Below, piece after piece: positions 28,001-60,515 of a DNA stretch of 64,000 nt. The stretch is from Romanomermis culicivorax (taxonomy: Eukaryota > Nematoda > Enoplea > Mermithida > Mermithidae). The stretch spans positions 930,001-994,000 of the forward strand of contig CAWUHX010000069.1 in NCBI GenBank assembly GCA_963922205.1, written 5' to 3'. How positions within the stretch are numbered: position 1 is the first letter of the stretch; each line of letters starts with the position of its first letter. The notes beneath the pieces were generated by a model. It was not told the origin of the DNA, did no database searches, and saw only the letters and a list, made by a program, of their open reading frames with translations. The position numbers and the translations under genes were made by a program.

Positions 28001-31000
28001 GAAACAATCGAGATTTTCAGATTCCTTCTTTTTCAAAATCTTCCCGAAATAGAATTTGACTTTGCTACAAAACCAATGGATGCTTTATGTCTCATTGAAA
28101 TTAGTTAAATGTCTTCTGGGTCACAGGATATAGTTTTGTTTGATTTTTTGCAACCTGAGACAGCAATGTCGAAAGCTGGTGATATATTCCGCATAATCAA
28201 ATAAACTCCGTTGTTAATTAATTTGATCTCGTAATTTTTGACTGCAGCTAGCGAAAGTATTCGTCAAGGTTCCGTTTCCATGGTCGGTGAACGGTCCGTC
28301 GCCGCCGTCGGCCAGTCGGTCGCGCTACCGGCCGGTCTATCGAAATCTGTTCGTGAATCAGTTTTTCAAACGGTTTTTTTGGCCTTGAAGATTATATGTT
28401 TGAGTTTCGAGAAGAAATTGGGCTCCGAATGGGTTCGCATCGTCCGTATGATCAAGGAAATGGGCGCCAAAAAGACGGGTGGCCCGGCCTATTGGAATTT
28501 TTTGGATTTCGCTTTGACCACTTGTACGCCTTTGCGTATTTTGCTGGTGCCGTTCTTAGAGCACAAAGTCAGTTTAAGGCGGGAATTAATGAAATTATTT
28601 TATTAAAAATTTTACAAATTATGTGACCAAGAAAGGCCAGGTTTTTGGTGTTCAAAAAACATAGGCCCTAGCTATATCAACGGTATGATATTAGAAATAT
28701 TGACCTGATCCAATTCCGAATGGTTATGAAGGAAGAATACTCAAGAGTGCACTACAGCCATAATCTGCAGGGGTCAGTGTACTGATGGAGTTTTTTCTAT
28801 TACAGGTTATGCTAGGTCATCCAGTTGGATTTCTGCTAAGTAACCATGAACATTTAGTCATTAAATTTTTGATAAATACATGAAAATTCCATACTTTACC
28901 TAAAAAATGTCAGCTCGTTGATGTCTTGTAAACCTAAAAGTCTACTCGGGATCAACCAGAATTCTGTATGAGGTTAACAGGTAATCTATATGTGATCGAA
29001 ACCCTCTGACCACCATCCCAAAACATGGCGTCAGTGTTGTAAGAGTACCTTAATTTCCAGCGAAATTCGGTTACATTCAACTGAAATGCTTACAACAAAA
29101 TGATATGAGCATGCTGAGTCGCTTGGCCTAAAGCTTCGGTATCCTTTTCTTGGTCTCAATTTAGAAATCACTTTTCGTAACAATGTTTTAGTATGCAAAT
29201 CGAAATTTCTTTAGCAAAGCAAATCAGGGCCCAAATTCTGCCGTTTCCCTGATATTCATCAATATTGCAACACAATTAACGATTTCTCAGTCTGACATGA
29301 CTGTACAGAAGGGAACTACGCTTTACGATATTAACTTATGAAGCTATTTTAATTTTTTCAGTTATCATTACAACTCACTGTGATCTCTGAGTGCATTTCT
29401 GAATCAAGCTTATTGAATCTTTTCGCTGCACGCCTCTATCTGCACCATGCACAAATGACAAATAAATTTTTCTGCCCCAAATGAAAATAAGTTAAAAATA
29501 TCACAGCAATCACATTAGTTTATTCAAAGTTTTTGCATATGCTGTGAAAGAATTATTTTCTCTTTGGATACTAAAAGCTGCTAACACTGATGCGTAAAGT
29601 TTCTTCCTACAGCAACTCGTCGGGTACTGCCATAAAAACATTATCTATGAGTTGATGAGCAAGTAAGATTTGCATGAATAGTTGAAAATAAGTGTACTCA
29701 AAAATACAAGTTTCCCAAATATTCTGAGTAATGGCAGAGTGAAAGAATATATCAAGCATGGCATTTACATCCAACAATTTCACAATGAAATGCGCAGACT
29801 TAGCGACCACAATTGTGACAATAAAGATGTAAATTATGCTGAAGCATTATTAAATTTTGTCATTTCAACTTGCTAAAATGAGGAATAATTCATTTTGTTA
29901 TCGATTCCCTGTGAAAAAAACAAAATTTCGACAACTTTTCCATCAAAAATTTATTTTTCTTCCAGAAAATGCCCGAAAATTTTTTTGCAGGCCCAAAACT
30001 GTTTGCTGCGCACATAAAAAGCCTGCTCTTGTAACACGACATGACTTGCATGACAGTCGCAAAGTTTTCTTGTTGAACGATTTTGATGACAGTAGGAATT
30101 TAATGGCGATTTTTCAATGTGGAAGCATTTTACGGGATACGAATTATAGTTCCCTTGATTTATTATCAGTTTAACAGATTGTGAGAAGAATTTCTCAGCT
30201 TCCGCATTGTCAGAAGGATAAATTGTAAAATCAATTAATTTCATATCAAAATACCTTAATTTCAGAATTAAGAAATTGTGATGTAATTTTTAATCAATGG
30301 AATCGAAATCAGCCTTTTAGAGGGTTCGTTATGATACGTAATTTTTAAAGAAGCCTCGTAGTGAAAAAATGCAACAAAATCCGTAGGACGGTAGTGACCA
30401 TGCTCCGCAAGGTCAAGTTTTTTTTTGAAGTTATAGACCTAACTGCTAATAGTTTAAACTTCAAGAACCTGAATTTTCACTAGAACAATTATTACGGACT
30501 AGAAATTTATCAATGCTGGTGATTGCTTCTCCAGACAATTATTTGACATGAGCTATTTGTGTCGTGGATTCACTGCTTTATACAGAAATACGCTCATTAT
30601 CCCATAATTTTATACAGAAAAACTAGGGAATTCTTCTAAAAAAGTTTTGGAAATCTGGGAAACCTGAGAAGTTCAGGTGATTTTATTTTAGAGAATCTGT
30701 TTGAACCTCGTGAAACTCTTCTGGATTATCCCTCCATGGGTACGTTTTGGCCTGATTCGGATCAGATCATTTAGTTTCTTGGTTTCGTAACATGGTCACA
30801 GTCCTGTCGTACATAGTTCAGACGTTCGTCGTACGATGAAACCCCCTGTTTTTTACGTTTTTTTTTGGTTGACTCGTTTCAAACAAATGACATTCTTCTT
30901 GCAGTTCTTGATCACAAAACCGCAAAGCGATCAAGAAAACTCGTGGATGGACTTTTTGCGTGACCGTTTATTCAACTCCTTGCAGTTGACCAGCGGAAAT

Positions 31001-34000
31001 TTGACCGGACGATGCAACGGAGTATGTTTGGCGGATTTGGCCGTCGAGTTACGAAATTTAAAAGAGGATTTAGCGAACAGATCTCTAGGTATGCTACTTT
31101 GTTGTGTAAGAATCGACGGCGTTTTAGGCAGAATCGAGTTCAGGATTTTCAGAAAGGCTAAAATTTACGAGCTAGTCATTTTCAGTCAGGGAGAGGTATT
31201 AGGGGATGTATCAACCCTACCAATAATCATAAAAATGGATTAGTGAATATCGAATTTTGGCAGAAACCGGTTTTTTAATTAGTATTTAAGCTACACCTCC
31301 CCACAAATATTGAATTCTACCCTTACTTGAAGATCTGACCTTGTGGACCTATAATCCACACTTATTCACAGACAATCATTCCCGAACGCCGACCATTATG
31401 GCCGACGTGCACAGCGATTCGAGCAGTATGCAGTCGACCAGCGGCCTCGGTCGACGACAATCGGAATTGAGGCGAACGTCCTCTGACGTTAGGCGTATGT
31501 CGTTTAGTTCCAAAGTGTCGCGATTGTCGCCCTCGCCAGTCGGTAAACCAGGTCAGTGTTACCAGCTTCTGCCTTCAAAATCCCCAAAAAAACCCAAAAT
31601 TTTGGGAAAAAACCCCAAAATTTTCAAAACGTATATGTATGGAACAATGCTCAATTTAGCATAATTGTATGATAAAACAACACATTCTTCAAAATTTTTA
31701 TTCAAATTTCATCCAAAACTTCATCGACTTCATTAGCACACACAATATCATCATTATCATTTTCAAACTTTTTAAAATCATACATTTTTACATTGAAGTT
31801 TTTCAACATTGACTGAGTTACATTCATGGAAAAACAACTTCTGACTCAGATTGGTTGCTGCTGTCGTCAATATGAATAGGACTATGAGCACTATCTTCGT
31901 CCGACATTATGTTATTATTAATCTTAAAACAAATAGCATAATATTATCAATTATACTGTTTTTCTGCGATGCGACATCATTTTCTTAATAGACATAATGT
32001 ATGAGCCTCAAATGTTTTTCCTAATTTTCAAAAAATTCTTAATTCCCTAGAAAACGCTGAAAAACGTCGGAATACTCGATAAACTCTCGATAATTAGGAA
32101 AGAGTCCGAAAAATCTTCATAGTTGCAAAAAAATATTAGACTAAAAAAGGAGAAAAAGCACTAAAGAAAAACGGTGATGATGAATGATACTTTGTAAAAA
32201 ATACAGTATTCTACTTTAAAAAGTAATTACTACTTGCTGAACAGAATCACCAAAAAAACCCCGAATTTAAAAAAAAAACCCCGAAGAAAACCCCACACTA
32301 TGTAAAACCCCAAAAAAACCTCAAATTGAAAAGAAAACCCCAAATTTTGGGGAAAAACCCCGCAGTTGACAACACTGAACCAGGTAAAAAGAAAGTAGAT
32401 TTACTGTAGTTACTAATTGTTATAAATTTATGAAGGATGATTACTAAACTTGCTTACATGCTGTTGAAACTTACATTTTTTCAAATGAGTCTCACCGACG
32501 TCAAAAAACACCCATATCAAAAAAACTTGCACCGTATGCCGAAATCGTTTGTTTCGGAAGTCGACGGCAGCGACGTTTCCTGTTCGTCCGAATCACTGTT
32601 TTCCCAATCTCTTTCAGTCCTATGTTCTATTTCACCTGAAATCATTTGAAAATAAAGACTATAGAAAATCTGTGAGAGTGAATTTACACTATGCAAAAAA
32701 ATTTGCTTTTTGGAAAAGCTGTGGAAAAATACTTGCAAATAAATTTGGAAAACGAAAAGGCCACAATCTTCATGAAAAGCTTTTAGTATTTTATTTGAGC
32801 TCAATAAGTATTCGTTTCATAAAAGAGTAATTAGTCTGTAGTGGTCAGCAAAATATTAGTACATGTTTAGGCAGACATGTGTTGTCCAGCGCTCTAAAAG
32901 TTGATAATCTCATTTTGCCCATCAAGGAAAAAAGTTAGGCTCTCGCTGTTTTAAAGTTACCTGAAAATTATTACTTCGAAAGATTTTCATAAATGATTCA
33001 AATATTTGTCTTTTTTCATTTTTTACACAGATTTTCGCGACAACTTCATTAGAATCATAGCTCCTCACATTTTTTCCTCGAATCCTCGTGAAAGAGGTGC
33101 TTATCCAGATTATCACTATAATGAAGAAAAACATCATAATTTGCTCTCCACACATGTGGAAGAAAAATTCGTCCACCAAGACTCAGAAGGTGCAAATGTA
33201 TAACAGCTTCATGATGCTAGGCAGGAGTCGGTGATCTTTTTAAGTAGAGAATGTCAGCTGATGCGGCCAATTTCTTGTAAAGGGTCAGAATTGGTCGAAA
33301 AGAGCGAATTTAGACCAATAAAATCTCTAAAAATGTGTCGAAAATATGTCTAGGGCCCAAAATGTCAATAAAAATTCTCTTTATTGCGCGAATCCCAAAA
33401 AAATTTGCTTTTTCAAAGCGGTAGCTTTTAGCCTTGAAAATTTTATTTTTATAGATTTTGATCTGATAATGGCATGGTTTTCGCACATCTGCTTCAGGCT
33501 ATCCCATAGGCAGTGGTATGAGGAGGGTATTACTCCTACCTGAAGTCCTAAAAATTCATCACTGGGTGTATAATTTTAGGAAAACATTTAGCTAGACTAC
33601 CTCGGCAAATTATCAAATTTACCCCTACCTGAAAATCTGACCTTGGGACTGCTCTAAGTTGTTCATGTAACCTGCTGATCTATGCCAGGAGTCGAATTTC
33701 AGAGGATTATGGTTTTTAATGTATGAGCAAAGACTATATATATGTTAGTGGGTTTTTTCTTTCTCAAATAATGAACTTGAAAAAATTTTAAACTGATTTT
33801 TCTAAAGAAAAGTCGACATTTTTCCAAATATATCTTTCAAATCGAGAATTTCCCGAGCATAGGAGCTGAGACATGGAAATATCGTCGAGTTCCCATGATT
33901 CGGAACTTTGGATACCAAGTACATGCGAATCAGACACCTAAAATTTCGTAGGATATCAAAAGCAAAGCGATTGGAAAGTTAGCCTAAGCTTGGGAATGCT

Positions 34001-36550
34001 GTTCCTAGGGCTGCCCTCTATGATATACCCAACTACAGGTTCATCGCCCCAAGAATCGATACAATCGCCGATCGACGAGTGTACAATCATGGAAGAAGCG
34101 GAGAACGAACAGGCGACGAGCGGCGGTGCCCTTGAACACACAACGGTTGGCAATGGTGGAGCAGTGGAAGCCGGTGCACAAGTGTCTTCGAGTGAAAAAG
34201 AAAGAGCCAGCACACCCGGCTTATTGTCTACTACCGGATCGTCGTTGATGCGTCGTAGGACGACGTTGCGGATGCAGCGCGGCGTCATTCGGAAACAACG
34301 GCAATCGTTCTATAAGACGCGGGAAACGGCTGCAGGTGACTTATGCAGCTTTTATTTGTTTGTTGATATTCTTTTCTTATAATGCATAATCTGGTTGCTT
34401 GTGAATTATAAAATCTGAAAGTTACAGGTGTTCATTATCTTTTGCTAATTATCAAATTACGTGGAACTGAAATTCTTGAGTCGACCGACAGAATATTCGG
34501 CACTCAAGGAAAGATCTAAAAAATACTAAATAATTTTGACACTTTTTAATTCACAAACTGTCTTTAACTGATTTTCATGAAATACTTGTGCGAGTTTGGA
34601 TCGTTCTATGCTGAATCTATTCTTGAGCTTAGAGAACGAGCAGGTGGAATATTTACCATGAGTTAGACAGTTTTCAATGGAAGTCACTTGTGCAGCCTCT
34701 GAATGCTGAAAAAAATAGAATGTAAGCATAACAAATACTTTTCAATATATCCTACCGTCAATTACAATAACAAATGAACTTTCTTTTAAAATATTTTGTG
34801 GAAACCATGCTAAGGTCTCATATCGTTTATTTGCAGTCACGTTTTGATTGTTATGCCAGTTAAGCTATTCGCTGGGAAACTTGGACGGAATAAAATACAA
34901 AGACTTCTATCCATACATGTACATAGAGGGTAGGGGGGTAAACGCCCATACCTGAGACCCTGGCTACCCTTCCTGGCCCAAAAAAATCATCAAACACCCC
35001 GCTTGAACTTTTTTCAAGACACGTTTTTTGATAATTTTTGTGCATATTTTGTATGAAAAACAAGCTTTCAGAACTTTTTTTTGTTTTTTTGCTCACCCAC
35101 CCCCCCTACCTCCTGGATAGAAAGTCCAAGGACTCTCCCCCCTGGAAATTTCTTGCCGTGCATGTCTGCTTCTATCATATATGTTTAAAAACAGTTATGA
35201 GTTAAAACAGTATTACTATCTTGTCAAAAATTAAGGAAAATGTTAGACAGCTTATTTGATTGGATGCCGACTCTTTTTCATGTGATTTTTCGTCATAATA
35301 AACGAGATAATCGTAGGCTTGATATGATGGTGAACCTTTTTTACACGAACCTGACTTTGATGAACCTCTCAACGACCTTGAGACTGATTCAAGTTTGATA
35401 TAGGTTGAGATGATTCGGATAAATTATGGTTTGAGGGTCTGCTGAAATACTTTTGTCAGCTCATTTATCGAAAAGTTAGACATCACTTTGGACTGCCATA
35501 CGTTTCTGTGTTGAGGTTTTGCGTCATTCGTCTCAGGATCAGCAAATTTTGTTTGAAATGAGCCGAATAGGAAAGTTTTTCAGGTGATGTCGCGCCTGGT
35601 CAACCATCTGATTATATCGAAATGGCGTCGTTGAGCCGAGCTAGAACATCAGCAACGGTTGCCGATGCAGCAAAGTACGATTTTTCGATGATATAACAAT
35701 CTAACGACCGTTTTCTGCACATCTGCACAAATTCAGTCTATGCTCCATTCAATTTGGTTTTAATATCATTTACCACAAGACTCATCTTTGGAGTGATCTT
35801 TTGGCCCACAAATTTTTTACTCTGCTGCGTATCGTTCTGAAAGAAAATGGCATATTTATGACCATTCAAAATGTTCATCATTTCAGAGTTGGTCATACGT
35901 CGTTGTACAAAACGCAAAGTTTGGATTATCCTCCCTATCGAATGAAAAGTCCCAGTCCGGTGTCCGTCACGGTCACCCCGATTATAACGATGACCGGACC
36001 ATCGACTTCGTCGTCGGCGGCCAGTGAAATGGTGTACATGGTGTGAATTGGATATATCATTTTGACCAGTGAACTTTTTTTTAATTCGATCTCAGTTGTT
36101 CTGCAGTTTCGTAGTTTGGAATGAACTAATTTTTTCTTAACGTGTGATTGTCTAGTGACACCGAACTCTAGATGATACCATTTTCAAAAAAACTTAAGGT
36201 CGAAAATACGGAAATGTACGGAAGTAGTATGAAAAAAATGTCAGCAATTTCGGTGTTTGGGTTTGTTTGTAGTTTTCGAATGAATAGTCCTTCCTCTGTA
36301 TCCGATGACTCACTGAAATTATCTGCAGAATTAAACATTGAACCATTTTCAGGGACCAGAAACCACTCGTTCCTACGCCACTGTAAAAAAAACGATAGGA
36401 TCCACGGAAAGTACGACGGCGGCCAGCACGGCCGGCGAACGGCCGTTGTATTTGATAGAAAAGTTGACCGTTTCATCAACGGCCGAGAGTGATCTAAATT
36501 TGTCGTCTCAAGCTAGCAGTAGCTATAGTGATAAAATCAAGTTGATTTGA
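767..36550 (+). CDS. unc80: UNC-80, NALCN sodium-leak channel complex subunit (C-terminal part, 39 exons)
   Basis: UNC-80 is a very large cytosolic alpha-solenoid (HEAT/armadillo-like) protein that pairs with UNC-79 and holds the NALCN background sodium channel at the neuronal membrane. Recognition rests on family landmarks in order: PVAWELLL, RMEEGAQ, PPPSIDFTLPSP followed by DPPW, LISLLRKLIQLG, KDVKQTLKKEQC, MNVINGVFILHGEDS, QFYILHRKPF, KADKPLKSLD, FRRPRDALLSL, EIAHALLKLAPYD, ILPLTDWS and NFLDFA. I joined 39 exons at GT-AG sites. Every junction phase agrees, giving one open frame of about 1,967 codons to TGA at 36,548-36,550. Vertebrate UNC80 has about 3,250 residues, so the N-terminal exons lie before this window. 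Introns are either 53-64 nt or long and MITE-rich. The C-terminal 300-400 residues look disordered and Ser/Thr-rich. Exon 1 start and the exon 38 donor are the least certain boundaries. Confidence 0.95.
1099..2030. other. Intron, nothing recognised
   Basis: AT-rich intron. Short frames are present but none has splice sites, family similarity or phase that fits the gene. Confidence 0.6.
2031..2150 (+). CDS. unc80: unc80 exon 2 of window
   Basis: Acceptor tttctttgcag, donor AAG|gtaaaa, phase 0 to 0, 40 codons. It encodes TVVHLANMFNFVC and a Cys/His cluster (CPHQKYCHPFCF with a further Cys-His) that looks able to bind a metal ion; that function is inference. Confidence 0.9.
2151..2953. other. 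Intron, nothing recognised
   Basis: AT-rich intron. A weak ccagacaccctgt motif at 2,846-2,859 could be a relic mariner end. Confidence 0.5.
2954..3058 (+). CDS. unc80: unc80 exon 3 of window
   Basis: Acceptor gttttcgcag, donor AAA|gtacaa, phase 0 to 0. It encodes VYGEEFPLEGQLDRRK followed by a charged helix LLENLLEKNRERSMDRRK. Confidence 0.88.
3332..3457 (+). CDS. unc80: unc80 exon 4 of window
   Basis: Acceptor tttactacag, donor AAA|gtgagc, phase 0 to 0. Encodes ASNLPINRRESAMVRTG and ends LLTEKLENEELK. Confidence 0.88.
3458..4753. other. Intron, nothing recognised
   Basis: 1.3 kb AT-rich intron. No repeat or coding signal that I can support. Confidence 0.6.
4754..4855 (+). CDS. unc80: unc80 exon 5 of window
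   Basis: Acceptor actctctcag, donor CAG|gtgcag, phase 0 to 0. Encodes a Lys-rich linker (DSKTNKKHGHE) ending AIWKYIKYQ. Less conserved than its neighbours, but phase and sites fit. Confidence 0.8.
4957..5053 (+). CDS. unc80: unc80 exon 6 of window
   Basis: Acceptor acttttctaaag, donor GCAG|gtcagt, phase 0 to 1. Encodes SAIIINESHFQDMLPVAWELLL, containing the PVAWELLL landmark of UNC-80. Confidence 0.9.
5070..5680. repeat. Family C repeat (TACATGTAAC end), possibly two nested copies
   Basis: Sequence beginning acatgtaacggagctcc (5,070) and again atatgtaacgggaggccgag (5,331) shares its layout with 43,523-44,199 and 52,187-52,676: a ccgaggtctgg start, a series of attgacattttt segments, a tatggctagcc block and a gatttctgggggg end. 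Two starts suggest one copy inserted in another. Confidence 0.65.
5818..6060 (+). mobile_element. Family A MITE, degenerate copy
   Basis: Roughly 243 bp with eroded ends (tttttttcttaaaacgcttcc at the left and actgactata at the right). The interior shares gaaagcaagtac and gaagcattttataaaaaaa with better copies at 22,670, 37,665 and 46,446. Confidence 0.7.
6061..6847. other. Intron remainder, nothing firm
   Basis: AT-rich. A ggaacatcctgtatgc motif near 6,646-6,661 looks like a worn mariner end without a partner. Confidence 0.4.
6848..7029 (+). CDS. unc80: unc80 exon 7 of window
   Basis: Acceptor ttatacctttttag, donor AAA|gtgagt, phase 1 to 0. Encodes AVELMRNQMQAKDATIRACA and YVLWRNRYHCWLRMEEGAQ, a strongly conserved block of the family. 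Confidence 0.95.
7030..7365. other. Intron, nothing recognised
   Basis: 336-nt intron between two strongly conserved exons. No repeat found. Confidence 0.7.
7366..7506 (+). CDS. unc80: unc80 exon 8 of window
   Basis: Acceptor ccaatttcag, donor AAT|gtaagt, phase 0 to 0. Encodes VPPPSIDFTLPSPPIG and VDPPWMPLLKTK, then an acidic tail (SLKEEEDAN). Confidence 0.95.
7507..9915. other. 2.4 kb intron with family H repeat
   Basis: Mostly unassigned AT-rich sequence. The only repeat I can support is at 9,285-9,390. Confidence 0.6.
9285..9390 (-). repeat. Family H repeat, copy 1
   Basis: The block agcagattttgattgagccc followed by agcagattcgaccctc matches, in reverse complement, the block at 36,935-37,060 (gatcgaatctgctaag, agtcaatcaaaatct). 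Element type unknown. Confidence 0.65.
9916..10300 (+). CDS. unc80: unc80 exon 9 of window
   Basis: Acceptor aaacattccag, donor GCTG|gtgagc, phase 0 to 1, about 128 codons, the longest exon here. It has a Lys/Arg-rich helix (TKTRRKQKQEMLKRSLEQA), a YEPALFF segment, a Gly-rich acidic linker, then FPSWLCSVVPLMLQML ending EVNHDGVAG. The glycine linker looks lineage-specific. Confidence 0.93.
10409..11148. mobile_element. Family B mariner-like MITE, copy 1 (740 bp)
   Basis: Starts TA|CAGGGTGAGCCAAAAAAAG and ends CTTTTTTTGGCTCACCCTG|TA, so it has long terminal inverted repeats and a TA target as in Tc1/mariner elements. The inner terminal part (accgacttacataacttttgaacgg) continues the inverted repeat. 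An internal frame reads PKSRALVMKFEKKQ then DQIEKRLKLL, possibly the HTH start of a lost transposase. Copy 2 is at 14,133-14,871. Confidence 0.9.
11177..11269 (+). mobile_element. Family A MITE, right-end fragment
   Basis: Carries gtaaaagctt, acgattttgacggcagtag and a worn right end acattttatgaaaaacatgctata. The left part is absent. Confidence 0.6.
11690..12290. mobile_element. Foldback-like element with tandem subrepeat arms
   Basis: The left arm (11,690-11,766) has about four copies of a 15-17 bp unit like ctcaaaacagcga. The right arm (12,072-12,290) has about ten copies of its reverse complement, tcgctgttttgaga with variants. The middle holds a cctaagcct-type simple repeat. Long inverted arms built from short tandem units are the mark of Foldback elements. 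No flanking duplication was established. Confidence 0.65.
12291..12745. other. Intron remainder, nothing recognised
   Basis: AT-rich sequence before exon 10. No repeat or gene signal. Confidence 0.6.
12746..12846 (+). CDS. unc80: unc80 exon 10 of window
   Basis: Acceptor ctgaatttcag, donor CAG|gtaaaa, phase 1 to 0. Encodes VNEVVRKVIWSCLVEDCAL and ends KLTVKEKQ, helical repeat-like. Confidence 0.92.
13059..13294. mobile_element. MITE with about 40-bp inverted ends, TTAA-like target
   Basis: Left end GGGTCATGTATACCTGCC followed by acggaacggaacgga; right end tccgttccgttccgct followed by GGGCAAGTATAAATGACCC. It is flanked by TAAA and TTAA, which resembles a piggyBac-type TTAA target with one change. 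Confidence 0.75.
13312..13486. repeat. Family D repeat (GTCGCCGA motif), copy 1
   Basis: Contains ttgtcggcgacaaaaatcct, the palindrome tcctaggatt, catcggcgacagtcgcagat and ends ttttaatagagcttaa. Copy 2 at 17,345-17,589 has the complete ends. Confidence 0.75.
13724..13950 (+). mobile_element. Family A MITE, diverged copy
   Basis: Left end gatagccagttttttgaaat, right end ttatgaaaaaacagactata. Middle keeps aggactggagatttgtgagc. Confidence 0.7.
14133..14871. mobile_element. Family B mariner-like MITE, copy 2 (739 bp)
   Basis: Starts TA|CAGGGTAAGCAAAAAAAGG and ends CTTTTTTTGGCTCACCCTA|TA. Collinear with 10,409-11,148. Internal frame ISLKSRASVLKLEK then SAIDQIEKRLRLL is less broken than in copy 1. 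Confidence 0.9.
15061..15254 (+). mobile_element. Family A MITE, left-truncated
   Basis: Begins within the element, keeps gactgaaaatttgtgagctt and ends attcaataaaaaacaaactata. Confidence 0.6.
15255..15634. other. Intron remainder, nothing recognised
   Basis: 380 nt before exon 11, no repeat or gene signal. Confidence 0.55.
15635..15718 (+). CDS. unc80: unc80 exon 11 of window
   Basis: Acceptor ataaatttcag, donor ATG|gtaaat, phase 0 to 0. Encodes EELISLLRKLIQLGPLPAQT and ends LLNYM. The next intron is only 56 nt. Confidence 0.93.
15775..15858 (+). CDS. unc80: unc80 exon 12 of window
   Basis: Acceptor acttattttag, donor CTG|gtaaaa, phase 0 to 0. Encodes IGFVMYYVRAPGEGSNEAIG and ALSLIWL. It has no in-frame Met start, so a simple ORF scan would miss it. 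Confidence 0.92.
15918..15986 (+). CDS. unc80: unc80 exon 13 of window
   Basis: Acceptor atgtgttgcag, donor GAT|gtaaga, phase 0 to 0. Encodes IIPSVQGLYFKDVKQTLKKE and ends QCD, a conserved block. Confidence 0.95.
16225..16323 (+). CDS. unc80: unc80 exon 14 of window
   Basis: Acceptor tttctcaccag, donor GAA|gtgatg, phase 0 to 0. Encodes AALMITANVPMAKKMIIQGF and ends SQFNILE. A 58-nt intron follows. Confidence 0.88.
16382..16478 (+). CDS. unc80: unc80 exon 15 of window
   Basis: Acceptor atttcatttag, donor ACGG|gtgaga, phase 0 to 1. Encodes ETQFSQVFSDCMEYFSVPPD and KYFLVDAKTG. No Met start, so easily missed. Confidence 0.9.
16656..16777 (+). CDS. unc80: unc80 exon 16 of window
   Basis: Acceptor attgcccatcag, donor ATG|gtaaag, phase 1 to 0. 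Encodes SYVRDYYFFRRSFYPQLNFV and an acidic tail DQDEGEAKMKQM. Intron to the next exon is 53 nt, the shortest here. Confidence 0.93.
16831..16908 (+). CDS. unc80: unc80 exon 17 of window
   Basis: Acceptor tgctgttttag, donor ATA|gtaagt, phase 0 to 0. Encodes AFAMKFCELGRVLLSYSVLK, matching the family's EVGRVL segment. Confidence 0.9.
16909..17344. other. Intron, nothing recognised
   Basis: AT-rich sequence between exon 17 and the family-D repeat. Confidence 0.6.
17345..17589. mobile_element. Family D MITE, complete copy
   Basis: Ends TTAAAGCGCAATTCAGAAGT and CACTTCTGAATAGGGCTTAA are imperfect inverted repeats with TTAA at both edges. The interior repeats tgtcgccgat/cggcgaca motifs on both strands, so the element can fold extensively. 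Confidence 0.75.
17657..17809 (+). CDS. unc80: unc80 exon 18 of window
   Basis: Acceptor tgtctttgcag, donor CAA|gtgaaa, phase 0 to 0. Encodes IPQRIYFLHEELTRLPAFPR and GKELYGLDMMHKLGWAQ. A family-D MITE ends 67 nt upstream. Confidence 0.92.
17865..18046 (+). CDS. unc80: unc80 exon 19 of window
   Basis: Acceptor ttgccttttcag, donor CGG|gtacga, phase 0 to 2. Encodes YLFGDLHLFMNVINGVFILH and GEDSSILRH, a well-conserved helical region. Confidence 0.95.
18047..18694. other. Intron, nothing recognised
   Basis: 648 nt, AT-rich, no repeat assigned. Confidence 0.6.
18695..18824 (+). CDS. unc80: unc80 exon 20 of window
   Basis: Acceptor tttattttcag, donor CAG|gtatgc, phase 2 to 0. Encodes FSIMPFLLKSYSQHQ and CKQFYILHRKPFLLQ, an UNC-80 hallmark. 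Confidence 0.95.
18825..19215. other. Intron, nothing recognised
   Basis: 391 nt, AT-rich, no repeat assigned. Confidence 0.6.
19216..19281 (+). CDS. unc80: unc80 exon 21 of window
   Basis: Acceptor ttatttttcaag, donor ACA|gtacac, phase 0 to 0. Encodes MFGSIANILDLNDDELDFDA. A 59-nt intron follows. Confidence 0.9.
19341..19568 (+). CDS. unc80: unc80 exon 22 of window
   Basis: Acceptor ttaaattgcag, donor CTA|gtaagt, phase 0 to 0. Encodes HLFRLLTAMENLDQQ, ILSLVKADKPLKSLDMCY and ITDAIAS-like helix CVTICAYAPDSKR. One of the strongest family matches. Confidence 0.96.
19569..21309. other. First half of 3.4 kb intron
   Basis: Mostly unassigned. At 20,056-20,080 acacagggtgtctcaaatgt resembles a Tc1/mariner end. 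No transposase frame seen. Confidence 0.45.
21310..22580. repeat. Inverted array of CCCGTTACCTCGAC motifs
   Basis: Between 21,330 and 21,625 a unit of about 60 bp (cccgttacctcgac, taatgttataaaaaatgaaa) is repeated about five times with divergence. At 22,500-22,580 the same motif appears in reverse (cattagtcgaggtac, ggtcgaggtaacgggac). A family-A MITE sits between. It looks like a DNA element with repetitive inverted ends. Confidence 0.65.
21776..22024 (-). mobile_element. Family A MITE, complete copy, reverse
   Basis: 249 bp from TATAGTCTGTTTTTCATAAA to CAAGAAAAACAGACTATA. The interior is the reverse complement of the copies at 22,670 and 37,665. Confidence 0.92.
22670..22915 (+). mobile_element. 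Family A MITE, complete copy, direct
   Basis: 246 bp from tatagcctatttttattaaa to agaaaaaacagactata. It lies 646 bp from the reverse copy in the same intron, so the transcript can fold. Confidence 0.9.
22993..23159 (+). CDS. unc80: unc80 exon 23 of window
   Basis: Acceptor aaattttcag, donor CCAG|gtaaaa, phase 0 to 2. Encodes VIMQAVIPHYMKKVQDE and LMVQVKTLISCCDVLSR. It follows a 3.4 kb repeat-filled intron. Confidence 0.93.
23300..23413 (+). CDS. unc80: unc80 exon 24 of window
   Basis: Acceptor tcttttatcag, donor TCAG|gttggt, phase 2 to 2. Encodes HFSGPQRAMDLAGGVSRMKS and ends EETIIVR. It has no in-frame start codon upstream. Confidence 0.9.
23478..23694 (+). CDS. unc80: unc80 exon 25 of window
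   Basis: Acceptor taataatatag, donor ATT|gtaagt, phase 2 to 0. Encodes a Pro-rich start (KPPKSPAP), then DVFRRPRDALLSLSAVFFK and a helix ending DQKSYI. The acceptor's pyrimidine tract is weak. Confidence 0.93.
23695..24032. other. Intron, nothing recognised
   Basis: 338 nt, AT-rich. Confidence 0.65.
24033..24112 (+). CDS. unc80: unc80 exon 26 of window
   Basis: Acceptor tttatttccag, donor AGAG|gtaaaa, phase 0 to 2. Encodes KLSEIAHALLKLAPYDPNTL, a conserved core. Confidence 0.95.
24408..24531 (+). CDS. unc80: unc80 exon 27 of window
   Basis: Acceptor tccgttttcag, donor AGA|gtgagc, phase 2 to 0. Encodes YFLDILPLTDWSVEHNRT and FLLRRVEKTFAKAVKK. Confidence 0.95.
24532..24834. other. Intron, trace of family A
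   Basis: Only a family-A-like right end, acaaacagacta at 24,709-24,720, is visible. Confidence 0.45.
24835..24930 (+). CDS. unc80: unc80 exon 28 of window
   Basis: Acceptor aattttctag, donor AAG|gtaatt, phase 0 to 0. Encodes RHVNWEALSNWLKGLHSTL and ends HLHFLK. Confidence 0.92.
25005..25390 (+). mobile_element. Family A-related palindromic element, copy 1
   Basis: Left end taatgtctgtttttcttgaa; right end caaagcattttgagaaaaaa. At 386 bp it is longer than the standard MITE. Its two halves are partly inverted with respect to each other (cctgccaaaccgtgtgtcac against gtaacgaatggtttagcg). Confidence 0.65.
25461..25643 (+). CDS. unc80: unc80 exon 29 of window
   Basis: Acceptor ttactgcaatgaag (weak), donor GGG|gtatga, phase 0 to 0. 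Encodes VSVQTCLKILIGDPILLGGG, a Ser/Ala linker and ITCLLMQALG. It is flanked by two diverged family-A repeats, 25,005-25,390 and 25,796-26,262. Confidence 0.88.
25796..26262 (+). mobile_element. Family A-related palindromic element, copy 2
   Basis: Shares with copy 1 a ttcctattcattac core, gagggttattcgagc, aacaaatagtttagccg and the tttaattttttaaattattt end. It lies just downstream of exon 29, so the exon is bracketed by the pair. Confidence 0.55.
26407..26609 (-). mobile_element. Family A MITE, reverse copy
   Basis: From tatagtctgttttttataaa to caagaaaaacagattata, 203 bp, so shortened inside. Confidence 0.8.
26760..26886 (+). CDS. unc80: unc80 exon 30 of window
   Basis: Acceptor ttgcttttcag, donor AAAG|gtctgt, phase 0 to 1. 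Encodes EHSFSLEYICSVETLGSFNE and LCHILMPVFLKAGSSKK. A 54-nt intron follows. Confidence 0.92.
26941..27072 (+). CDS. unc80: unc80 exon 31 of window
   Basis: Acceptor taatttttcag, donor AGAG|gtgaag, phase 1 to 1. Encodes SPHLSKRDLNFCLNLMLSAI and ends AAIAAPRG. Confidence 0.92.
27073..28247. other. Intron, nothing recognised
   Basis: 1.2 kb, AT-rich. Short frames lack splice support. Confidence 0.6.
28248..28567 (+). CDS. unc80: unc80 exon 32 of window
   Basis: Acceptor tttttgactgcag, donor AAA|gtcagt, phase 1 to 0. After a Ser/Val-rich lead it encodes FLALKIICLSFEKKLGSEW, IKEMGAKKTGGPAYWNFLDF and RILLVPFLEHK, the last well-conserved folded block. Confidence 0.95.
28568..30904. other. 2.3 kb intron, mostly unassigned
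   Basis: A family-A right-end relic is visible at about 30,075-30,149 (acgattttgatgacagtagg, gaagcattttacggg). The rest shows nothing I can support. Confidence 0.5.
30905..31088 (+). CDS. unc80: unc80 exon 33 of window
   Basis: Acceptor ttcttcttgcag, donor CTAG|gtatgc, phase 0 to 1. Encodes FLITKPQSDQENSWMDFLRD and LAVELRNLKEDLANRSLG. Confidence 0.92.
31372..31551 (+). CDS. unc80: unc80 exon 34 of window, hAT inserted at its 3' end
   Basis: Acceptor ttattcacag; the exon ends ACCAG|gtcagt, phase 1 to 1. It encodes the disordered Ser/Arg-rich C-terminal region (SDSSSMQSTSGLGRRQSEL, SSKVSRLSPSPVGKP). The donor GT lies in the target-site duplication of a hAT element that begins at 31,554. A second copy of the donor, ACCAG|gtaaaa, lies past the element at 32,379-32,389. 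Confidence 0.9.
31546..31553. repeat. hAT target-site duplication, left copy (splice donor)
   Basis: AACCAGGT, identical to 32,378-32,385. It includes the last bases of exon 34 and the intron GT. Confidence 0.9.
31554..32377. mobile_element. Non-autonomous hAT element, 824 bp, at unc80 splice donor
   Basis: Left end CAGTGTTACCAGCTTCTGCC and right end (reverse complement) CAGTGTTGTCAACTGCGGGG are hAT-type inverted repeats, flanked by a perfect 8-bp duplication AACCAGGT. Inner ends are rich in ccccaaaa/ttttgggg. On the minus strand 31,702-31,907 holds ATG..., reading MSDEDSAHSPIHIDD, and after a one-base shift KMYDFKKFENDNDDI to a stop next to AATAAAA. That may be the fused first and last codons of a deleted transposase. 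Confidence 0.9.
32378..32385. repeat. hAT target-site duplication, right copy
   Basis: AACCAGGT followed by aaaaag. This is probably the original donor context (ACCAG|gtaaaa). Confidence 0.9.
32386..33030. other. Intron remainder after hAT
   Basis: A coding-looking Ser-rich frame at 32,463-32,630 lacks matching splice phases. Otherwise nothing recognised. Confidence 0.45.
33031..33189 (+). CDS. unc80: unc80 exon 35 of window (probable)
   Basis: Acceptor tttttacacag, donor GAAG|gtgcaa, phase 1 to 1, exactly 53 codons. Encodes DFRDNFIRIIAPHIF and a His-rich stretch (EEKHHNLLSTHVEEK). Being symmetric in phase, it could be an optional cassette. Sites and phase support it, but I do not recognise conserved residues. 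Confidence 0.65.
33190..34038. other. Intron, nothing recognised
   Basis: 849 nt, AT-rich. Confidence 0.6.
34039..34335 (+). CDS. unc80: unc80 exon 36 of window
   Basis: Acceptor ccaactacag, donor GCAG|gtgact, phase 1 to 1, 99 codons. Encodes an acidic Ser/Thr/Ala linker and then a basic segment (LMRRRTTLRMQRGVIRKQRQ) as in the disordered tail of UNC-80. Confidence 0.92.
34336..34912. other. Intron, nothing recognised
   Basis: AT-rich sequence before the family-G repeat. Confidence 0.6.
34913..35165. repeat. Family G repeat, copy 1
   Basis: Runs from acatgtacatagagggtagg through cctgagaccctgg, ggcccaaaaaaatcatcaaa, a cacccaccccccctacc block and agaaagtccaaggac. Found in reverse at 42,330-42,556 and truncated at the window end. 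Confidence 0.75.
35166..35583. other. Intron remainder, nothing recognised
   Basis: 418 nt before exon 37. No repeat assigned. Confidence 0.55.
35584..35674 (+). CDS. unc80: unc80 exon 37 of window
   Basis: Acceptor agtttttcag, donor CAAA|gtacga, phase 1 to 2. Encodes GDVAPGQPSDYIEMASLSRA. No Met-initiated frame marks it; phase continuity on both sides does. Confidence 0.87.
35887..36040 (+). CDS. unc80: unc80 exon 38 of window
   Basis: Acceptor tcatcatttcag, phase 2 entry. Encodes VGHTSLYKTQSLDYPPYR and a Thr/Ser-rich tail. Two donors in the same phase are possible, ATG|gtgtac (exon end 36,031) and ATG|gtgtga (36,040). Read-through of the second gives an immediate stop and a shorter protein. 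Confidence 0.85.
36041..36352. other. Last intron, nothing recognised
   Basis: 312 nt, AT-rich. Confidence 0.65.
36353..36550 (+). CDS. unc80: unc80 terminal exon with stop
   Basis: Acceptor accattttcag, phase 0, 65 codons then TGA. Encodes GPETTRSYATVKKTIGSTES, PLYLIEKLTVSS and a Ser-rich end (SSSYSDKIKLI). No clear AATAAA follows in the next few hundred bases, so the poly(A) site is not placed. Confidence 0.87.
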   Translation, partial: GPETTRSYATVKKTIGSTESTTAASTAGERPLYLIEKLTVSSTAESDLNLSSQASSSYSDKIKLI

Positions 36551-38093: not shown

Positions 38094-39641
38094 TTATCCT
38101 ACAGCGTCCGAACTGATTAAATCGTTGTTGTCATCATCATCCACCGAAGGTCTATAAGAACTAACCGATTCTGTATGAATCGTCCAACGTCTGCCCATAA
38201 AATAATCGAAATGATCATCATTTTTCTGCTGACTCCTCAATTTTTCCAGATATGCAGAAACTGGCGACAATTTTCCCGACTGTTGACCATCCGATTTTTC
38301 TTCATCGATCAATTCTGGGCTTCTTTTATCACTGTGATCACGATCTAGCTGAGTAGGCAAGCTTTTAATCGTCGATTTTTTCGATGAAGAAGACTTTGGA
38401 CTCGATTCGGATGATCTCTTATCAGAAATATCTTTCTTTCTTGGCGACGTCTCGATCGATTTGACTGTTGATACAGTGGCTGGCGTTTCTGATTTTACAA
38501 TAGATTTTTGTTCATCCTGATCAGACTCGAATTTTTCGTCTGCATACGACGTTTGACGAGACGAGGAAGAATTTCTCGAGATCGAAGTTTGTTTTCCGAT
38601 ACTTTTCGGTGAGTCATCAGTTTGAACGGATCTATAGACTTTTTCCGGTTCTAGCTGCGTTGCTTGATTCCGAAATTTCGGCGTCAAATCAACTTGACAC
38701 ATACCATCTTTGGATTGTAAAATGTTTGTACAAGGTGTTGATTTCGGTCGAAAAATTTTTCGATGCGAATTTTTCTCTAAATCGGCTAAAATTCGTCGCA
38801 ATTTTTGCCTATCGTATTCCAATTTTTGAACGTAATTTTTGTTGTATCTAATTTCCAAAGGTACTCTCGATTTGGCTGATTTGGAAACTTGGTTATAAAA
38901 GTTGAAGGAATGTTCTAACCTGTTCGACTTTTTCAAGTGGACATGAGAAGATTTGTGAGATTTTCGATCCGGCGGATGAGAATCACTTTTAAACCGCGAG
39001 CTTCCCAGCAGAGATAATTCTCTGAAAAATGCTTCCATCAGGGGAAATTCGTGTCTTTTGGATATGTGGCTCGACTTTGAGGATCTGGAACTTGTTTGGG
39101 TTTGAACATTGTTACCAATAGTACATTCAACACAAGCATCTTTCACTTGCCGATTAGAATTTTTCTTCTGAATCCCTGTAGAATGCTTCATGAACGTCAA
39201 TAAACTTTTTCTAATGAAAGTACATTGGCAAATTAGTGAAATTTCAACATTGAAACTTTCACTCGAGAATTCGACCACCGCTTCGTTCGTATGTGAAATA
39301 TTTCGTTGACTGTCAATTCCTACATCCAAATTTCGTAGAATTTTCTCGACAGGTAAGGATGATTTGAGGATCGATAAATTCTCCTCAAAGTTGAGCTCGA
39401 AATCTAATGAAGATTGCAATAACGTGGTCAAATCCGCATTGAACAGACACGACTTCCCCCGCGAAATTGTGATTGATTTCTCATTCGTTGGAAACACCGC
39501 ATTCAACTTGTCGAAAATAACCATAGTAGGTAGGTCTAACAAGTTTAAAGATAAAGTCATCGGTAGAATGTTCCGATCATTTTCGCTCACAAATTTTATT
39601 CTCTCGACGAGAATATCAAGGCATACAGTATTGTCAGGCAT
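38094..39641 (-). CDS. MAP10: MAP10-like microtubule-associated protein
   Basis: One open frame of 515 codons from ATG at 39,641 to TAA at 38,094. The frame stays open 17 codons further upstream but without ATG. Residues 5-120 resemble the MAP10 N-terminal domain: CLDILVERI, LSLNLLDLPTMVIFD and the block RGKSCLFNADLTTLLQSS, which parallels the RGKSCLF segment of vertebrate MAP10. Near residue 200 EFPLMEAFFRELSLL matches the family's conserved helix. The rest is Ser/Lys-rich and probably disordered (SSSKKSTIKSLPTQ), ending in an acidic tail (SVDDDDNNDLISS). MAP10 binds and stabilises microtubules at spindle and midbody in vertebrates. The protein is shorter than human MAP10 (about 900 residues). 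It lies tail to tail with unc80, 1.5 kb apart. Assignment rests on motif memory. Confidence 0.7.
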   Translation of the reverse strand: MPDNTVCLDILVERIKFVSENDRNILPMTLSLNLLDLPTMVIFDKLNAVFPTNEKSITISRGKSCLFNADLTTLLQSSLDFELNFEENLSILKSSLPVEKILRNLDVGIDSQRNISHTNEAVVEFSSESFNVEISLICQCTFIRKSLLTFMKHSTGIQKKNSNRQVKDACVECTIGNNVQTQTSSRSSKSSHISKRHEFPLMEAFFRELSLLGSSRFKSDSHPPDRKSHKSSHVHLKKSNRLEHSFNFYNQVSKSAKSRVPLEIRYNKNYVQKLEYDRQKLRRILADLEKNSHRKIFRPKSTPCTNILQSKDGMCQVDLTPKFRNQATQLEPEKVYRSVQTDDSPKSIGKQTSISRNSSSSRQTSYADEKFESDQDEQKSIVKSETPATVSTVKSIETSPRKKDISDKRSSESSPKSSSSKKSTIKSLPTQLDRDHSDKRSPELIDEEKSDGQQSGKLSPVSAYLEKLRSQQKNDDHFDYFMGRRWTIHTESVSSYRPSVDDDDNNDLISSDAVG

Positions 39642-39692
39642 AGCGAAGTTAATAGGAATATGGAAAGGACGAACGAAACGTAAAGACTGCAA

Positions 39693-40478
39693 TAGACTGT
39701 TGGCTACAGTCGCTATGGTAACAACGAACTCAGATCAAATTGTAGAATTGGATGTAGCAGAAATGGTCAACCGTTTGCGGTACAATCAAAAATAATGAAA
39801 ACTATAGGCACCCTGTGAAAAAAGTAAATTTAGAGCAAAACAAGTGTAGTGCCGTTGCCTGAAGCCGTCCTTCAATCTTTCAATTAAAATCACATGCGTA
39901 AGGTTTATTTCTATTTTTTGTAGTATATTTTGCTACTCATGAATAAGTAAAAGCAAATAAACATTTTCAATGCAAAATTATTTTGGCGTCCGTAGTTACA
40001 ATGTGACGGGAAAATTTGGTTTTTTGGAAAGAGGTTTTTCCTTGGCCTTCTTTTCTCCTTTAATAAATTTATTTTTTTTCCTAACCGGAGCCTTGACGTC
40101 AGCAACGTGTGGTACTCAGTATTGGACCGTGGGGTCTTGAGTATCGGACGACAGGTTGCCTTATTTCCCTCTGCTAGGGCCGGCCAACCCCGAGTGAGCG
40201 TATTGCATCGTCTACGGGCGAGTTTCGAATCCTGACGACTTCCCCAAGCTTTACACAAGCGAAAATATGAACGGAAACGAAAAATATTGTGAACATTCTA
40301 CAAACATGAAAAGACTGAAAAAACAGAAAGGAAAAGAACAAAAGGCGAAACAGAGAAACTAAAAGAAAGTGAAAAAGAAACCGAAGAGGGAAAAGCAAGG
40401 AAGCTAGCAAAATGAAAACTAAAAAGTAAACGGGAACTGCATCAAATTTTAAAAAGCAACACGGAAAAAAATGAGGAC
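39693..40478. other. Upstream of MAP10-like gene, possible SINE trace
   Basis: At 40,165-40,245 the motifs ccgagtgagcgtattgcatc and gagtttcgaatcctgacg resemble the A and B boxes of a tRNA-derived SINE, but the stems do not pair well. No promoter element could be placed. Confidence 0.3.
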
Positions 40479-40570
40479 GGAAAGGAAAAGGAAAAGGAAA
40501 AGGAAAAGGAAAAGGAAAAGGAAAAGGAAAAGGAAAAGGAAAAGGAAAAGGAAAAGGAAAAGGAAAAAGA
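40479..40570. repeat. (GGAAAA)n microsatellite
   Basis: About 14 near-perfect GGAAAA units. Poly(Pro-Phe) frames on the minus strand come from this repeat and are not genes. Confidence 0.97.
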
Positions 40571-40917
40571 AGAAGTCCGATAAAATATAACAAAAAAGAT
40601 GAAATATGATAAAATATAAAAAAAGAAGTATGATAACGTATAAATCAGAGGGAAAAACACCTTATAGATGCGGTGTTTTGTGTGGCCGCATCATATCGTA
40701 TGACCAACTTTAGCGTCTGCCCGATATCTACTGTATGTAAGACTGACCATTCTAGGAGGTCGAAAAATTGAGCAGCGTGCTGCATTCTTCTGAATGCCAA
40801 AAATGAGCTGGTGAGGTGCGTGCCGAGGTTAAGTTATGACTTTGGACAAAATGATGAAGAGTATTCAAATTAAGAAACACGAAAATTGCTTTCTGAAACG
40901 ATGAAGCAATAGAAAAC

Positions 40918-53611: not shown

Positions 53612-55370
53612 TGAAATGAAATGAAAAATATTTATTGCTGTTACACAAAACAGAAACGAAAGAAAAATGCAAGGTTAAATACATAATACAATGTCGTATA
53701 AAGAATAAAATTAGTTAATCGACTCGCAAGAAATGTAAATATTTTAAGAAATAGAAAAATCATGCAGCAATAGGGTGCAAAGGTTACTTGAAAAGTAACA
53801 ACTTACATGCACCCCCAATTCGATTATCAAAGTTTAGAAGTTTAATTTTTTCTTTGAAACTGCAAACTGGGAGAATTAACGATATCGAAAGATAAAGAGT
53901 TCCAGACATTAATATAACGGTTAAAAAAATCAAACTGGCAAGCAGTAGTATGAACTGACTTTATCGTCAATCTTAGATCATGATTACGACGCGTATTGTT
54001 GTTGTTTATACAGAAAAAGTCATCAGGATTTAGAATTGTTTTTTGTGGATTATGTTGTACGTGGTACAGAGGGCAGATTCTAATCTACGAATATCAAGCT
54101 TGCGTAGACCTAGCCTTTGAAGTCTATCTTCATAGGACAAACCTGATTTATGACCAAAAATCTTTCTGGTAAATCTACGTTGAACATTTTCAATGTAGCT
54201 TATGTCTGCTAAAAAATGTGGATTCCATACTGAACTACAGTATTCTAATATTGGACGTACATAAGTAACGAAAGCCTTTGCTAGAGTATTTTTCTCACGG
54301 GAGACAAAAGACTTGAGAATTAATGTAGACCTATTATAGGCATTTTTTACGATGTATCTATAGTGTTCTTTAAACTTCATATTAGGAGATATAAGAATTC
54401 CCAAATCTTTAACATAACTTGCGTTTGATGGGAGATGTTGGTAACAAAGTGTATATTGACACGATGGGTTTTTTGCACCTAAATACAAGACATAACTCTT
54501 TGTAGTAGATATAGGTAATTGCCAAGCAGTAGACCAATTTGAAAGAGTATCAAGTCTTGTTGAAGAATCATAAAATTTGTTGATACATTGAAAATTTTTA
54601 GATCATCTGCAAAAAGAAAAATTTAACTTTTGATATTGTCAATAATGTCGTTTATGTACAAAAGAAACAAAGTTGGACCTAATACACTACCTTGGGGCAC
54701 ACCACTAGACACTTTGAGCTGAGATGATAGAGAGTTTCCAATTTTGACCCTTTGAAATCTATTCTTAAGAAAATTTGATATCCAGCTTAAAAGGGGACCA
54801 GAGAGACCATATTTAGAAAGTTTGAGAAGGAGCTTAGAATGGGAAACTGAGTCAAAGGCCTTGGCAAAGTCAATGTACACTATATCTAAGGAGTGTCCTT
54901 TGTCCAACTGATTTAGCCATGAGTTTTTACACTTGAGTAACTGTAGTTCGCAGGATCTATGTTTTAGGAAACCAAACTGTTGATCTGCTAAAAGGTTATG
55001 CTGATGAAGGAAACTTAAATTTTATTATTAATAATTTTTTCCATAATTTTGCATGGGACTGAACATAGGGAAACATGACGATAATTTTCAACCAGGGCCG
55101 GGTCACCTTTTTTGAAAATAGGAACAACAGTTGCAAAATTCCATAACTTAGGAAGGTGGCTCGTCTGGAAAGAAACTTCAAAAATTGATGAAAGTGGTTG
55201 GGCCAAATGTGTAGCAAGTTTTTTTGATCAAAAAAGCACAAAGATTGTCGGGTCCCAGAGCAGTGGATGGCTTGATGCTTTTTATGGCTGCTAAAAAAAT
55301 ATAAGGTTTTAGAGTAGGATTATTATGCGCTTGAGGTTTAACAACTTTATTTATTATATTTATAAAAGAA
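53612..55370 (-). mobile_element. LINE fragment: reverse transcriptase to 3' tail
   Basis: Minus strand: STALGPDNLCAFLIKK, NFATVVPIFKKGDPALVENY, VYIDFAKAFDSVSHSKLLLK, VSSGVPQGSVLGPTLF and FADDLKIF are the classical RT blocks; YVRPILEYCSSVWNP, RRFTRKIFG and LRKLDIRRL are the C-terminal part. The 3' end is aataaatatttttcatttca, a short-repeat tail without long poly(A), as in CR1/L2 elements. Several frameshifts. It lies between the middle and the end of another LINE ORF1, so it was probably inserted there. Confidence 0.88.
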
Positions 55371-59609: not shown

Positions 59610-60515
59610 TTGACAATGAAAAGAATGGTCTTTGAAAGGTCTTTACATCCAAATAGCATATATTCATTAGTCAGATATGTGAAATTATTCATCATTAATT
59701 CTTCTATTATAGAATACCTCAAAAGAAACTCTTTATCAACACCCTCTCAGTTTGGGTTTTTGCCAAAAAAGTCCTGGGAAACACAATTGCTCAAATGCAA
59801 AAATACTTTGGACCCAACTAATTGATTCAGGTTCTTCTATTGATCTGGTCTACATTGATTTTAGAAAAGCTTTTGATTCCATCTCCCATAGTAAGCTTGT
59901 CTTGAAGTTAAAAAATTATGGCATCTCTGGTTTTCTTGAAAAATGGATCATCTCCTTTCTTTCAAATCGCACTCAAAGGGTTTGCATTGAAAACAAACTT
60001 TCCCTAGCATCAGACGTAAGCAGTGGTGTCCCACAGGGGAGTGTTTTAGGCCCAACTCTTCCTTTTGTTTATAAATGACCTTCCAATCCAGATACACTAA
60101 AATCTGATGTTTACCTTTTTGCCGATGATTTCAAAATTTTTGACACCTCCACACACCGCAAAATTCTTCAAAATGAACTTGATCAAATTTTCAATTGGTC
60201 CAAAACATGGCAACTCGAAATATCTGCCGAAAAAACACTATTCTTTTGGGTATACCACAGAGGTCCCCAAGGTCGAAAATTTAGGTAGGGGTAAAATCGT
60301 AAATTTTAAGGGTAGTACTTGAAATATGCTGTGACCTTTTTTTTGTTCCCAACTTTTTGCAAAGGAGGGGGGAGTTGTAGTACTCTAACCACATAGAATA
60401 ATGCCCCTACTTTATGCTTTTTACAGTCAAAAAACATTTACTATTTCAACTCCATTTTCCAGCTCCCAATCATGCAACTTTAATGCACTAATTATATGCA
60501 CAGAATAGTCACACT

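Follow-up and report, generated by a model that had tools for sequence, protein, structure and literature searches.

Elements of the hAT superfamily are characterised by short terminal inverted repeats that start with CAG. In maize, Ds1 elements are reportedly spliced from messages, as the titles of Dennis et al. 1988 and Wessler 1991 indicate. The Ac/Ds elements belong to the hAT superfamily and carry 8-bp target-site duplications, as stated in the accessible part of their description (PMC3260210). Introners are also known, and according to the available portion of the report on them the target-site duplication can provide their 5' splice site (PMC9860276). In this study, a non-autonomous hAT element with a perfect 8-bp duplication was located on the end of a predicted UNC80 exon of the mermithid nematode Romanomermis culicivorax. 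In the accessible text on this species, the v2 assembly comprises 359.1 Mb in 595 scaffolds, transposable elements make up 289 Mb, and the gene number is given as 16,689 (PMC10879605). Therefore, a transposon within a gene is unsurprising here.

The host gene is UNC80. Eight matches of PF19424 and fifteen of PF20262 were found, all on the plus strand of contig C69 from 918543 to 958573, and none on any other contig or strand. UNC80 is thus one locus, and it runs into the window, which is the whole stretch of 64,000 nucleotides analysed (C69:930001-994000); positions below are those of the window. The final Pfam match of the gene ends at 28573, and our purpose-written gene-finding path places the donor of that exon at 28568. 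The exons of the path range from 28 to 385 nt. One of them is a predicted tail exon of 180 nt (31372-31551, plus strand) with phase 1 at both ends, which ends in ...AACCAG and lies downstream of the conserved UNC80 domains, in the unconserved tail. The predicted next coding exon (34039-34335, plus strand) has a phase 1 acceptor. Downstream of the predicted end of UNC80, the minus strand has an open frame of 546 codons (38097-39734) that showed no Pfam match at 0.001. A hexanucleotide array of 15 copies of AAAGGA is located at 40481-40571, and one of its frames reads as a (KE)n run. Retroelement remains were also observed as two RVT_1 reverse transcriptase fragments, at 54626-55021 on the minus strand (E 7.6e-18) and at 59713-60075 on the plus strand (E 9.5e-9).

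The left target-site duplication, AACCAGGT, occupies 31546-31553 on the plus strand and contains the exon end ACCAG with the intron GT. The right copy, also AACCAGGT, occupies 32378-32385 on the same strand, and the two are identical at 8/8 positions, which is the duplication length of hAT elements. The element between them is 824 bp long (31554-32377, plus strand), starts with CAGTGTTACCAG and finishes with TTGACAACACTG. Its left terminal inverted repeat, CAGTGTTACCAG, lies at 31554-31565, and the right one, at 32366-32377, reads CAGTGTTGTCAA on the minus strand. Both of these short repeats start with CAG (CAGTGTTACC... and CAGTGTTGTC...). The ends were also fixed by the genome search. The two other copies that matched in one piece cover positions 15-838 of the query, which correspond to 31554-32377; where copies matched piecewise, their outer boundaries mostly lie no more than a few bases from one of these two ends. 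The insertion point is between +2 and +3 of the predicted donor. A sequence-only reading of this stretch had proposed a hAT insertion at the donor of an UNC80 exon, with a duplication covering the exon end and the intron GT. The insertion is confirmed by the 8/8 duplication and by the ends common to the family, and the span of the duplication was read directly in both copies.

The element was searched against the assembly (359,112,060 bases, 595 contigs), and at least 80 matching pieces were obtained when the best 40 of 113 first-look candidates were scored. Copies were regarded as two-ended when the match began no more than 3 bases from the left end and finished no more than 1 base from the right. 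Both ends were present in 29 of the 37 fetched places, and eight were without one or both. Two-ended copies are between 492 and 1512 bp long. Their flanking 8-mers match at 8/8 positions in 20 of the 29 and at 7/8 in six, and the remaining three match at 6, 2 and 1 of 8. The shared ends together with the 8-bp flanking duplications characterise these copies as a non-autonomous hAT family. The window copy differs from the leave-one-out consensus by 1.40% in its left part (4th lowest of 15 long-enough sequences) and by 0.78% in its right part (joint lowest of 37 including the window). Therefore, it is presumably among the younger copies. With a 1508-bp copy as query, the best 40 of 80 candidates included no autonomous parent carrying these ends; this query matched itself and a copy on C54 at nearly full length, a copy on C162 in several pieces and others partly. 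Matches to Dimer_Tnp_hAT are many in the genome, at least 150 when the best 150 of 1837 first-look candidates were scored.

The flanks of the other copies were inspected for the same donor-like ending. None of the 29 other two-ended copies has AGGT at the end of a flanking 8-mer, whichever strand is read. The sole other copy of the 29 with AGGT inside a matching duplication, AGGTGAAG, is a 1508-bp relative at C90:365499-367807. Two copies, at C90:784255-785988 and C132:713893-715638, have opposite-strand duplications, ACCGAAAT and ACTACTAC respectively, that end in GT ahead of the CAGTGTT terminus but do not have the AGGT ending. The pattern AGGTCAGTGTTNCCA, that is, AGGT ahead of a hAT terminus, was detected in 5 places genome-wide versus 2 for the reversed control. 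A matching right duplication was present within about 1.5 kb beyond the pattern in two of the five places, the window copy and a locus on C141 (match at 668016). The latter is a different hAT element of 1065 bp with the terminus CAGTGTTGCCAGATG and with GCATAGGT on both sides, so it likewise forms AG/GTCAGTG (the slash marks the splice position). The sequence upstream of it appeared stop-rich by eye.

The two duplication copies in UNC80 both carry a potential 5' splice site on the plus strand. The left one is CAG/gtcagt (gtcagt at 31552-31557), in which GT comes from the duplication and CAGT from the element terminus. The right one, CAG/gtaaaa (gtaaaa at 32384-32389), is the ancestral site. 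Both were scored with a donor matrix derived from 17 further UNC80 donors, with the two focal donors left out; the exons of these 17 are Pfam-supported and their exact boundaries come from our own path. The left donor scored 10.29 bits and the right donor 9.66 bits, and among 4496 GTs in 89 kb, scores at least as high were obtained for 10 and 16, respectively, each focal donor itself included. Each of them exceeds 16 of the 17 leave-one-out scores of the gene's donors. Among the training donors, gtcagt occurs in 2 of 17 and gtaaaa in 3 of 17. Since the set holds a site identical to each focal donor, CAG/gtcagt at 5054 and CAG/gtaaaa at 12847, both scores were helped by it; the same sites tell that both donor forms occur in the UNC80 gene. 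By this matrix, both copies rank as donor-capable sites, as the sequence-only reading had supposed.

The choice between the two is not strongly determined by the donor sequence alone. The U1 pairing energy is slightly better for the right donor (–8.3 kcal/mol) than for the left (–7.7 kcal/mol). Position does separate them. When the left donor was blocked, the gene path, which had been trained with the focal donor included, lost 19.7 nats. Use of the right donor would add 832 nt to the exon, namely 824 nt of the element and 8 nt of the duplication, and give an exon of 1012 nt. The extended frame stops at a TAA (31662-31664, plus strand), 37 codons beyond the exon end. The earlier expectation that the right donor brings transposon sequence with stops into the message thus holds, with the length corrected from 826 to 832 nt. 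A further donor upstream, TCG/gtaaac (gtaaac at 31543-31548, plus strand), was considered and rejected, for its 0.38 bits are lower than the score of any of the 17 training donors.

The following course of events is proposed as the probable one. At a fairly recent date, a non-autonomous hAT element would have landed in the donor of the UNC80 tail exon, separating +2 from +3. The site before insertion would have been the contiguous AACCAGGTAAAA (AAACCAGGTAAAAAG without the element). The 8-bp duplication would have copied ACCAG/GT, by which the exon kept an adjoining GT. The first letters of the element, CAGT, would then have filled +3 to +6, where the ancestral donor has AAAA, to rebuild a strong donor, CAG/gtcagt, with a G gained at +5 and an A lost at +3. 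Splicing from 31551 would drop the element within an intron now 832 nt longer, and the mRNA would be unaltered. The ancestral donor would persist at 32384, 832 nt downstream, as a mostly unused competitor. Three points of this course are inferred: an actual exon end at 31551, use of the left donor and little effect of the insertion on fitness. It had been suggested before that the duplication makes the hit tolerable. This is correct in so far as the GT is duplicated, but the duplication alone gives just CAG/GT and does not rebuild the left donor. What is added to that reading is that the transposon's own first letters would complete the donor. An empty allele was looked for in the same assembly with a 1015-bp query from the right flank, which found itself and one weak match of 72% over about 140 bp. 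The assembly is mostly collapsed, according to the available part of its description (PMC10879605), and a second allele may therefore have been lost from it.

The likeliest alternative is that both donors are used, or that an acceptor inside the element is used together with the right donor, by which a part of the transcripts would carry the element and be destroyed or truncated. We hold this to be unlikely. Under this alternative the insertion would be slightly deleterious and still segregate. It is compatible with the rebuilt-donor explanation, so the likelihoods given to the two overlap. The right donor is nearly equal in strength and pairs slightly better with U1. Within the element, position 31799 also resembles an acceptor (7.43 bits), and its combination with the right donor would form a cassette of 585 nt with several stops. 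Moreover, the window copy is among the least diverged of the family and therefore may still be segregating. Against mixed use, an exon of 1012 nt or an extra exon of 585 nt would be unusual beside path exons of 28 to 385 nt. Exon definition is a general argument against such long exons.

A somewhat less probable explanation is that the exon ends elsewhere or is not in the mature mRNA. The element would then lie in an ordinary intron and the duplicated donor would be coincidental. The exon status of 31372-31551 is predicted and is the weakest step of the proposed course, and its main support is the rank of the donor. The exon is an ab initio prediction. In its alignment with the mammalian UNC80 tail, 260 of 3000 shuffles match or beat the score, and for the next exon at 34039 the number is 2916 of 3000; neither is significant. 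Neither the exon nor the predicted tail had a match in the PDB. The acceptor at 34039 is weak, with 3.36 bits, a value that exceeds only 3 of the gene's 16 acceptors. In the interval from 31560 to 34038 there are six further AGs with about 4.9 to 7.43 bits, for example 6.63 at 33455 and 5.39 at 32618. Therefore, the downstream partner of the exon is uncertain. The path with the left donor blocked also stops the exon at another place, 31425. On the other hand, the ancestral GT ranks among the top 16 of the 4496 GTs in 89 kb, and the nearby alternative donor reaches just 0.38 bits. The ancestral GT closes an open frame with coding-like codons, and at the start of this frame is an AG that the path accepts (acacttattcacag). 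One frame of the exon is open and the other two contain stops. Its codon score is 20.0 bits; among 7577 open windows of 59 codons outside the predicted exons, which overlap one another, 191 score at least as high.

Skipping of the exon was also considered and is improbable. Both boundaries of the 180-nt exon are in phase 1, and 31088 joined to 34039 remains in frame, so damage to its donor would be tolerable if it were skipped; both donors look strong, though, and skipping is not needed. Recursive splicing, in which the left donor would first join the AG/GT of the right copy (CCAG/GTAAAA) and the latter would then serve as a donor, is very hard to credit and was rejected, for 32384 scores –3.96 bits as an acceptor, below all 16 used acceptors, and a pyrimidine tract is absent.

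The chance of such a hit was estimated roughly with our own figures, in which the 16,689 genes reported in the accessible text on the assembly (PMC10879605) were assumed to have about 8 introns each. The probability that one exact register is hit at any donor is about 0.04% per insertion. The expected number of such hits is about 0.04 for the 113 candidate copies of the family and about one for a few thousand hAT insertions. Therefore, no special cause is needed in a hAT-rich genome. Tentatively, a broader effect can be considered. If the last two bases of the duplication are a donor GT and the element supplies CAGT, including the important G at +5, hAT elements could land on donors harmlessly. 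It is possible, though doubtful, that termini starting with CAGT complete donors by nature and that such hits, harmless or even strengthening, are over-represented at exon edges among the survivors. If true, this would be a quiet route by which introns lengthen and gain transposon-made donors. The UNC80 case can be put to a test because RNA-seq reads served the annotation of the species, as the available portion of the report states (PMC10879605).

The UNC80 locus can be compared with the known systems on this basis. In common with introners, it has a DNA-type element whose duplication provides the GT of the donor. The difference is that introners are new introns in many copies, whereas the UNC80 element sits in an existing predicted intron with an old acceptor. 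Introners are recognised by repeated new introns in many genes, whereas here the predicted donor is pre-existing and a flank ending in AGGT occurs in 0 of 29 copies. The likeness to maize Ds1 is that a non-autonomous hAT element is removed from the message by splicing, which is predicted in the UNC80 case. Ds1 is said, by title, to be spliced from exon sequences, whereas the UNC80 element is at the exon edge and a new intron is not needed. Ordinary intronic transposon insertions are similar in that the element is carried within an intron. They differ in that the UNC80 hit is at +2/+3, the nearest position that still keeps AG/GT on the exon side. A comparable insertion of an animal hAT element on a donor was not found in a literature search of titles and abstract openings with partial coverage. 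The locus is a clear case, resolved to the base and apparently young, in which a message could stay intact despite an insertion adjacent to the exon. Donors derived from duplications and hAT elements removed by splicing are already known. Therefore, the UNC80 case is a new example of these rather than a new system.
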